From a virus, in IMG/VR virus record IMGVR_UViG_3300032223_001328, positions 1 through 31,318 of that record: a DNA stretch of 31,318 nucleotides; one strand, written 5' to 3'. A program made the position numbers and the translations under genes. Of this stretch, positions 7,398-22,352 are shown piece by piece; within the stretch, counting starts at the first letter, position 1, and each line of letters begins with the position of its first letter. The notes beneath the pieces are model-generated. The model saw only the letters and a list, made by a program, of their open reading frames with translations, searched no databases and was not told where the DNA came from.

Positions 7398-9055
7398 TAG
7401 ACCAGCACCAAATTGACATCGGCCAGCGCGCCGGACGCGGGGTTATAGGCCGCGAAGGTCGGGATTTGGTTGATGGCCATCGTGACCGAATTCTGGTTTG
7501 GCAGCACCGCGGTCATGGCCTCGCTGGTGACCGTTTGGTTCACGACGACGGTATAGGTGCCGGTGCTGCCGGTCGTGCCGGTCAACTGAGCGGTGATGAG
7601 CGAGCCGGTCAGGACGTTGGTGCCGTAGACGAACTGTCCTGGCGCCATCACCCCCTTGGCCACGAGAGACGCCGTGCTGGCCGTGGTAGACGCGCTGGTG
7701 ACATACACTCCGGCGCCGCCGGTCGTGCCGCTCGTTTGGCTGACGATCGTGGTGCCGACCGGCACGCCAGTTCCCGAGACCACATAGCCGGGATAGATCG
7801 TCCCCGTTACCCCGGTAACGGTCAGATTGACGCCCGAGCCGGTGCCGGTGAAGCTCGCCTGAGCAATGGCCGAGACGGTCAAGGTGGTGCCCGAGATCGA
7901 TCCGGTGAAGCTCACGTCTGGCGGTATGTCGGCGGCGATCTGGATCGATATGATCTGCGCCCATGAGCCGAGCAAAGCGATCTGTCCATAGAATCGGCTT
8001 GCCAGGATCGTGCTGCCGATGCGCGCCCGCGTGCCGCCGTCCATCCCGAGAAACGCCGTGTTGATGGCGTTCGATATCTGAATGCCGGCGTTGCTCGGGA
8101 CGTTCGCGCTGTTGGCAATCGTGACAGTGAAGCTGACCGCGACAGCGGTTGCCGTCTGAAATGTTACGCTATAGGTCGGGGGGCCGGGTCCGAAACCGGG
8201 GTTAGGATCGGTGATCGTGACGGTGGTGTTCCCCGTGTAGCCACAGCCGGGATTCTTCTTTTGCCAGATTGCCAGCGCCACGGCGGAGGATGCGCCGCCC
8301 GCGACGCACACGTACAGGCTATTCGCCGCAATGGTGACGCCGCCAATGATTGCGGCGGTGCCGGTGAAATTCTCCGTCGCATAGGCATCGATCACGCCTG
8401 GCACCGACAGGACGTTGCCATAGATCGCCGCCAGGAAGCCGGCCGCGTTCTTGGCGACCGATGCCGCCCGGCGAGCCTCGAAAGCCGACCGCGTTTCGAC
8501 ATTTTGCCCAACCACGCCAGAGACGACCGATACCGTGTTCCATGTCGGGATCGCCTGATAAATGGCGACACCGCTGCTTTGGGGGACCGGGATCGGGCCA
8601 AGCGCGGCAGCCGCGAACGGCAGCGTGATCGTGCCGCTGGCGGGGATGACGCCGGCAGTCGTGCTCAGATAGAGGTTGCCAGATGCGTCGGAAATCTTTG
8701 CCCCGACCGGGATGACAACCCCAACGCCGCCACCGCACGCAACCTGCAACACAGTCGGCTGGCCGGCGATCCTGGTCAGGAAATAGATGCGCGCAATCGC
8801 GTCTTGCATCCGGCCAAAGGCGAAGGCCGGATCGACCGAATTAAATAGGAGGCACATTTGGTCGTAGCTGTCGCCGATGATCGCGGTGTCGCTCACAGCC
8901 TGTTGGCCGAGGCCGGTTGTGAGCGCCGGGTTGACGTTTCCGCCAAACGCCGCGTTCTGATCGGCCTGATATCCGGCCAAGATCGCGCTTTCGGACGGCG
9001 CGACGAAGCCGGTTGCCGTGAGGCTGATTTGGGGGACGGATGTGGTGCCGCTCAT
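7397..9055 (-). CDS. Baseplate J-like wedge protein with inserted beta module, 552 aa
   Basis: The N-terminal part ([20 protein letters not shown] … [20 protein letters not shown]) and core ([53 protein letters not shown]) match the baseplate J/gp47 family. Residues ~382-515 are an inserted Gly/Thr/Ser-rich module ([18 protein letters not shown]) that also occurs in three other virion proteins here. The C-terminus ([20 protein letters not shown]) returns to family sequence. It forms the wedge ring of the baseplate with the gp25-like protein encoded just upstream. Length exceeds the family norm because of the insert. Confidence 0.88.
   Translation of the reverse strand: [552 protein letters not shown]
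7511..7912 (-). repeat. Shared beta-rich module, copy in baseplate J
   Basis: Residues ~382-515 of the baseplate protein carry two units built on [20 protein letters not shown] and [19 protein letters not shown]. The same pattern G-x-G-[IV]-x2-G-T-x-I-x2-Q-x-[ST]-G-T-x-G-x-G-x-Y recurs in three other virion genes in this window. Confidence 0.75.
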
Positions 9056-9057
9056 GG

Positions 9058-9408
9058 TCAGAACCCTACAGCCTGCGTCGTGCCGTTGCTATCGGTGAAT
9101 TGGATTTGGCCGGCCAGCTTCCGACCGACCGGCGCCGCGAAATATACCACAGGATTGGTGCAGCCGGGCACCGTCAACGCCGCGTCGATTAGCGCCTGCC
9201 GGAGAAGCGAAAGCGGCTGGTTTTTCTTGAGCGCATCCTGGAAATAATCGACGCCGATGGTAGTGTCATACCAGACCTCGCCAAGGAACGTGCGGCACGC
9301 CGACGCCACGTCCTGAGCGACCGAATAAGGATCGGACGCCATCGCGAGATCGCCGTTCGTGTCGAGCACGAAGTCCCATGTCGTCAGGTCGAGTAGGGCG
9401 GTTTGCAT
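9058..9408 (-). CDS. gp25/W-like baseplate wedge protein, 116 aa
   Basis: The product reads DLTTWDFVLDTNGDLAMA, then SVAQDVASACRTFLGEVWYD and GVDYFQDALKK, the pattern of gp25/GpW-type wedge proteins in contractile phages. I chose ATG 9408 because AGGAACGGGATC precedes it. The longer frame to 9462 adds an 18-residue tail that reaches back into the spike gene. It lies between the spike and baseplate J, the usual order. It should bind baseplate J and nucleate wedge assembly at the sheath interface. Confidence 0.83.
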   Translation of the reverse strand: MQTALLDLTTWDFVLDTNGDLAMASDPYSVAQDVASACRTFLGEVWYDTTIGVDYFQDALKKNQPLSLLRQALIDAALTVPGCTNPVVYFAAPVGRKLAGQIQFTDSNGTTQAVGF

Positions 9409-21390: not shown

Positions 21391-21395
21391 TTCGA

Positions 21396-22352
21396 TTACC
21401 CCATGGACCGAGAGGAGATTTTGACAACTTCGCCCGGCGCACCGAACGACCGGCAATACCACCCGGTCTCGACGGTGGAGGTCGCCGCGATGGTGGTGCT
21501 CGACGCGGTTTGCGTCGGCGTGACGTAGTAGGTGCCGGCGCCGCCCGTGCCCGTGCCGAGGCCGGTGATGTAGGTTCCGGCCGTTACCCCGGTGCCGGAA
21601 AGGATGTCCCCGATACCGTAGCTGCCGCCCGTCGTGGTGCCGGCCGTGAAAATGCCATAGGTGGCGCTGATCGTCGTGCTGGCAACCGATTGCTCGGGAA
21701 TGCTCACCGTGTACGTGCCCAGCCCGCCCGTGGTCCCGGTCAACTGCGCCAGGATCATGGTGCCGGTGGCAATGCCCGTTCCGGTCAGGATCGCACCCGG
21801 CGCGAAGGTGCCGGACAACCCGGATGCCGCGGTGAAGACGTTCCCGGAAATGGTGCCCGTTGCGCTGCCGGTGCCGGCGGCGATGCTGCCGGTCGAAGAC
21901 GCGCCCGTGGTGGGGTTGCCGGTGGCGGCGAACGATGCCTGCCCGTTGGCCAGATTGGCGTAAGCCTTCTGCCCCGGCACCGCTTCGGTCGTGCCGTTGT
22001 TCAGGACATAGAAGCTGCCCTCGTTGAACACGTTGTTCGCGGGAAATCCGGCCGGGATCGTCAGGCCGGACGCCGCCAGATAGGTGGTGATAAGACCGGT
22101 CTGATCGCGATGCACGAACCCGTTGGGAGCGCCGCTGTAGCCCACGGGGGCCGCATTGCTCGCGACGCTGAACGTCGCCTGATCCAACCACGCGAACAAC
22201 CCGACCGTGAGGCCGTTCAGCCCGGCCGTGATGCCAATGGTCGAACCGTTCTGGCTCGTGAGGATCGTCGCACGGGGATTGGAATCCGCGAAGTCCCCGG
22301 CGATACCGGGCGCCTGGACGGCGTTGGTGACGGTTTGAAAGGTGCCAGCCAT
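21396..22352 (-). CDS. Structural cement (Gp24-like) protein with inserted beta modules, 318 aa
   Basis: Residues 1-150 ([20 protein letters not shown] … [16 protein letters not shown] … [15 protein letters not shown] … [20 protein letters not shown]) match structural cement proteins encoded beside DUF2184 capsids. Residues ~158-292 are a Gly/Thr-rich insert of two units ([37 protein letters not shown]) shared with three other virion proteins. The last 20 residues ([16 protein letters not shown]) resume the cement core. The protein should bind the capsid outer surface and display the insert. Confidence 0.82.
   Translation of the reverse strand: [318 protein letters not shown]
21477..21881 (-). 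repeat. Shared beta-rich module, copy in cement protein
   Basis: Residues ~158-292 contain two units ([20 protein letters not shown], then [19 protein letters not shown]) placed near the C-terminus of the cement protein. The second unit resembles the second unit of the sheath copy (GLGTG-x-GG-x-GTY). Confidence 0.75.

Follow-up and report, generated by a model that had tools for sequence, protein, structure and literature searches.

The locus raises the question of whether one small domain has been built into several unrelated proteins of a single virion and, if so, how it spread and what it gives the particle. The window (the whole stretch of DNA analysed, a 31.3 kb fragment of an uncultured phage) encodes a Baseplate J-like protein (BpJ), a tail sheath, a neck terminator and a capsid cement protein, all described in a first-pass annotation as carrying inserts built on the motif VSQ-x-SGT-x-G-x-G-x-Y, seven units in all. 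Optional domains of phage particles are usually treated protein by protein. The four assignments were confirmed by Pfam families, with PHROGs in agreement for the baseplate wedge, tail sheath and minor head protein (Table 1).

Seven whole units of one module of about 62 residues were found in the window: two in BpJ, two in the sheath, one in the neck terminator and two in the cement protein. The 62-residue unit profile was the product of iterative profile building, with [62 protein letters not shown] as the consensus of the family. All seven units were also recovered by an independent profile, built solely on units of other proteins, with the window and the four host families excluded; with it, the four proteins score 44.7–86.4 bits, shuffled sequences (1,000 per protein) reach at most 8.3 bits, and none of the other ORFs of the window gives a score. 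The count of seven in four unrelated proteins therefore stands, but the nesting of one BpJ unit in the other had been overlooked. A shared motif family is likewise present, but the motif as first written is too narrow, VSQ-x-SGT being found literally in three of the seven units (BpJ inner, sheath unit 1 and neck). The sheath is 96% identical in contig L001 and both of its units are present there, so the sheath inserts are not an assembly artefact. Gly, Thr and Ser together make up 52% of unit residues, Trp and His 0.1% each, and charged residues 2.3% (Asp and Glu 1.5%, Lys and Arg 0.8%). Most of the conserved residues are Gly or Thr, and they look structural; the sole conserved aromatic residue is one invariant Tyr, and no conserved binding patch is apparent among unit residues.

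Table 1. Host proteins and module units in the window. All seven units are on the minus strand: 7511-7903 (two), 15743-16120 (two), 16970-17155 (one) and 21489-21857 (two).
Feature	Coordinates (strand)	Length, aa	Family assignment	Unit score	Remarks
Baseplate J-like protein	7397..9055 (-)	552	PF04865, 8e-11; phrog_6; PHROG baseplate wedge		
Outer BpJ unit, C-terminal part	7511..7669 (-)			i-E 1.4e-12	HMM 10-62
Inner BpJ unit, complete	7670..7846 (-)			i-E 2.4e-11; 1.7e-10 with independent profile	
Outer BpJ unit, N-terminal part	7853..7903 (-)				First strand, [17 protein letters not shown]; HMM 1-17
Tail sheath	14684..16630 (-)	648	DUF3383 PF11863, 3e-108; PHROG tail sheath		Two units after reference residue 152
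Sheath unit 2	15743..15922 (-)			i-E 2.8e-14	
Sheath unit 1	15923..16120 (-)			i-E 2e-9; 3e-7 with independent profile	
Neck (tail) terminator	16640..17380 (-)	246	PF23961, 1.5e-18; NF047498		
Neck unit	16970..17155 (-)			i-E 4e-15	
Capsid cement / minor head protein, XM1 gp53-type	21396..22352 (-)	318	PF23982, 4e-19, 69 bits (gathering 27); PHROG minor head		
Cement unit 2	21489..21668 (-)			i-E 1.3e-13	pLDDT mostly 87-94
Cement unit 1	21669..21857 (-)			i-E 2e-17	pLDDT mostly 92-97

Units follow reference residue 152 of the sheath in 24 of 26 carriers and residue 44 of the neck protein in all 36, and they lie near residue ~140 of the cement protein in most of 56 carriers. Three sites were found in BpJ, at residues 233 (n = 11), 282 (n = 1) and 381 (n = 13, the window included); L311 and L314 carry units at two sites (reference residues ~238 and 381), and the unit at 282 belongs to L051. 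The insert of the window BpJ lies in the C-terminal part of the protein (residues ~376–522), where the complete inner unit separates the first strand of the outer unit from the remainder. The N-terminal part of the outer unit is weak alone (i-E 0.56; 0.025 with the independent profile), and an uninterrupted single unit occupies site 381 in L269, L271, L279, L292, L328, L054, L140 and L321. Nested insertion would be the simplest history of the pair, but not the sole one, because a deletion within a tandem array gives the same sequence. Nested BpJ insertion and the three different BpJ sites argue that the module inserts as a unit. In the sheath, the insert lies within a domain (window residues ~97–345) wholly missing from the AO1 sheath, and it is therefore probably peripheral. 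The sheaths of L014 and of the Gluconobacter/Bombella prophages L394–L402 have just ~370–430 aa, and the aligned one, that of L014, lacks the peripheral domain hosting the units in other phages; the sheath of L381 is much longer (818 aa), with one recognised unit.

AlphaFold2 models were built for the cement protein (34 sequences; mean pLDDT 87, units mostly 87–97) and for the sheath (31 sequences; mean pLDDT 84, units 71–91). The strand order of the units agrees between these two different hosts, though less confidently in the sheath: a long entry strand, two short ones, one before and one after GTY, and a long exit strand into the next unit. The unit, modelled in cement with high confidence, is predicted to be a small beta-barrel, and the neck and BpJ units, by sequence relationship, probably share this fold. 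The core of the cement model resembles phage cement proteins, with Z 13–14.5 (13.7 to 7kmx_a), and the sheath core matches the E217 and Pa193 sheaths with Z 34–35. XM1 gp53, E217 gp24 and Pam3 gp6 share the core fold of the window cement protein, but their chains of 150–211 aa correspond to the core length, without the two inserted units.

At the level of one unit, cement unit 1 aligns weakly with domain 2 of EF-Tu/eEF1A (~70 residues, 2.3–2.6 Å), with Z 6–7, which is below 8, the safe level for a shared fold, and may reflect a common arrangement. Ubiquitin E1 chains were also among the Foldseek matches; the likeness to the small barrels of EF-Tu/eEF1A domain 2 and of E1 FCCH type is weak in structure, with no detectable sequence relation. 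Chain 1 of 8eci from Arthrobacter phage Bridgette, which we take to be the Bridgette cement protein, aligns, again weakly, to cement unit 1 over 67 residues (2.2 Å, 25% identity), but it is a stand-alone protein. Dimeric cement proteins are present on the Bridgette capsid (PMC13033339). In BFVD, similar units have been predicted independently (1.2–1.7 Å, 31–43% identity). The top BFVD matches of the cement model are A0A1V0SDM6 and A0A1V0SCQ2, collagen-repeat proteins of the giant virus Indivirus ILV1 (E 6.5e-12, 31% identity), which suggests that giant viruses of eukaryotes carry the module as well.

Ig-like domains were also sought. No Ig fold was seen among the fold matches of the cement model, none of the Ig-like Pfam families passed its curated threshold in the four proteins (only a weak fn3_5, 0.2), and no Ig-like family was found among 52 other carriers; missing Ig matches in the fold list do not prove that the fold is a different one. 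The analogy with Ig-like decorations, drawn in the first-pass annotation, thus holds for optional and promiscuous addition to unrelated virion proteins, but apparently not for the fold, which does not look Ig-like.

Among the proteins examined, short host proteins without units are present in eight database phages or prophages, namely Bcep1, AP22, phiXaf18, phiAO1, Aeromonas, Klebsiella and Pseudomonas phages and a Helicobacter-assigned prophage. The cement protein of these eight has ~160–180 aa (318 in the window), the sheath ~390–500 (648), the neck protein ~145–215 (246) and BpJ ~390–410 (552); the excess of the window proteins over unit-less relatives is about 70 aa per unit. In uncultured relatives and prophages, copy number at the same loops varies from 0 to 3 in cement and from 0 to 2 in sheath, neck and BpJ; the cement site is empty in L014 and L141, and holds one unit in L076, two in the window and three in L154. 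Since relatives differ in this way at shared sites, the module is an optional add-on. That the inserts belong to the fixed core of each family is extremely improbable: their sites are exactly kept among carriers, but units are missing at these sites from all cultured relatives examined and from most uncultured ones, and this reading is rejected by the empty sites.

Among complete genes of a sheath-anchored IMG/VR sample, units were present in 22 of 45 cement, 2 of 79 sheath, 22 of 74 neck and 16 of 51 BpJ genes, fractions that do not represent prevalence, since the sample ranking used a sheath without units as its reference, which favours phages that lack them. On a tree of the sheath cores of 184 phages, with insert columns excluded, the minimum number of presence changes is 15 for cement, 9 for sheath, 9 for neck and 5 for BpJ. 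Units are absent from both neck and BpJ in 62 cases, present in both in 24 and in one only in 10; corrected for ancestry, co-occurrence across proteins had one direction and was not significant, the independent pairs being too few.

As the alignment of the seven units offered no sufficiently conserved stretch for a direct locus search, IMG/VR was scanned with two degenerate DNA patterns; among the matches listed, the module is widespread. Carriers beyond the four hosts form at least 57 groups by their unit-masked bodies, most of them unannotated. Those recognised include HK97 capsid, tail tube, head closure, SU10 adaptor and gp8 and gp10 baseplate parts, as well as E217-type cement, collar, tail fibres and spikes, and nearly all recognisable other carriers are virion parts.

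Recent copying of units within a genome is rejected: the best DNA identity between positions of one genome is ~79%, that of the window's own units is lower, and in just 1 of 193 cases does a unit have its closest match within its own genome. Between genomes, the best-matching unit lay at the same position in 54 of 57 cases for cement unit 1, 26 of 36 for neck and 15 of 17 for sheath unit 2. Judging by these comparisons, the movement of units is old, with inheritance by position and not by genome; the unit phylogeny, with 62 columns, is of low resolution. The earlier proposal that the module moves as a unit inside the genome therefore survives as regards insertion as a unit, but not as regards recent movement, the signal of which was looked for in nucleotide identity and was not found. 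An exception is the inner unit of the window BpJ, whose closest matches are the cement-1 and sheath-1 units of a subfamily (71% and 67%); this is consistent with an old transfer between proteins. Swapping of lone units between close relatives is rare, given 1 of 763 comparisons at p<1e-4. The neck proteins of L141 and L197, with the unit 60% identical and the rest 86%, are the sole clear candidate for lone replacement in these comparisons.

Pooled over 65 pairs, dN/dS was 0.146 for the unit and 0.161 for the rest of the protein; between the window and L001, it was 0.07 for units and 0.10 for the rest. The units are under purifying selection and are constrained equally to the rest of the proteins. 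A selfish or slippage repeat, that is, GC-rich low-complexity DNA expanding by recombination without benefit, is thus improbable; it would account for the nested and tandem copies and, through repetitive Gly–Thr codons, for the DNA likeness between units, but a dN/dS of ~0.15, like that of the host proteins, the exact insertion sites and the confidently predicted fold speak against it.

The inserts are best explained, with a probability of about 0.72, as copies of one autonomous beta-barrel module of ~62 residues, an accessory virion domain serving as an optional exterior decoration. From the type of host protein and the optional loops, we infer that the units are exposed on the outside. The unit would fold independently with its ends close together, which would allow splicing into loops without disturbing the host fold; it may have spread between phages by recombination over evolutionary time, followed by tandem multiplication. 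As the cement, sheath, neck and baseplate proteins are multi-copy, hundreds of barrels per particle would be present, forming a Thr/Ser/Gly-rich, nearly uncharged coat. The likeliest benefit, by analogy with phage Ig-like domains, would be weak many-fold contact with the host surface or surroundings, an inert shield or spacer being almost as likely.

Phage structural proteins are known to undergo domain shuffling (PMC10684548), and promiscuous Ig-like domains on phage virion proteins are attributed there to Fraser et al. (2006). In mycobacteriophage Douge, Ig-like domains cover the capsid and the tail (tube) and bind mycobacterial host glycans, which makes the Ig-like analogy reasonable (PMC13033339). 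The likeness consists of a small optional beta domain on unrelated virion proteins (capsid, tail tube, baseplate), in many copies per particle; in contrast, the module belongs to another sequence family, apparently with another fold, and sits within internal loops of four different proteins of the same particle, in tandem and nested.

Binding of host-surface glycans along the whole particle, as first proposed, is possible by this analogy, with the odds against it. Besides the Douge precedent, units occur together in several surface proteins of one phage, and in prophages they vary with the host group: they were found in none of 68 complete Gammaproteobacteria genes and are common in Rhizobiales, Methylobacterium and Rhodovarius, with unit-bearing prophages for example in Methylobacterium variabile DSM 16961 (L364) and Mesorhizobium sp. 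WSM3862 (L357). This pattern, however, could be explained by shared phage ancestry, and with almost no Trp, His or charge, one invariant Tyr, and neither an aromatic platform nor an acidic metal site, the unit composition speaks against a classical lectin site, weak binding still being compatible. The same composition favours a barrel that is stable and uncharged and adds thickness or stability to the particle while binding nothing, as do the copy number of 0–3 at fixed sites and the diversity of hosts, including head closure and tail tube; such a spacer or shield is nevertheless somewhat unlikely, as purifying selection and long persistence require some benefit.

The unit family was found neither in Pfam nor in NCBIfam, the unit profile matched no solved structure in the PDB, the 8eci Bridgette protein included, the cement protein had no match in PADLOC, and the unit motif strings were not found in the literature searched. 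A tblastn search of cultured phages with a lone unit gave nothing, which is not evidence of absence, because the low-complexity filter probably masks the unit. In four libraries, only phrog_21413 and phrog_38233 matched the unit, the former with E-values of 2.6e-12 for cement, 6e-5 for sheath, 2e-4 for neck and 2e-3 for BpJ, and in 45 of 52 other carriers. Both contain the unit (phrog_21413 is of unannotated function, phrog_38233 is a tail fibre), but they are whole-protein clusters without description of a module.

The broader reading is doubtful: a mobile barrel family specific to phage virions, unnamed in Pfam, NCBIfam and the literature searched, which would spread into loops and into its own copies and would coat capsid, neck, sheath and baseplate of one particle as a general weak-adhesion coat. 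Four unrelated machines of a single virion are decorated here by the same undescribed module family, which, with at least 57 further carrier groups, is worth naming. Empty, single, double, triple and nested states are all kept among relatives, including prophages of named soil bacteria, and the module is therefore a natural experiment on the role of decoration.

Low-complexity tail proteins of the window at 3038-6813 and 17759-18550 were rejected as further carriers; their blastp matches, obtained without composition correction, are a compositional artefact, since the profile scores are negative. In the protein at 3038-4867, residues 280–341 gave a sub-threshold match to E1 FCCH (PF16190, E 0.022), and this stretch may represent another kind of small barrel module, one that is common in the tail proteins of phages.
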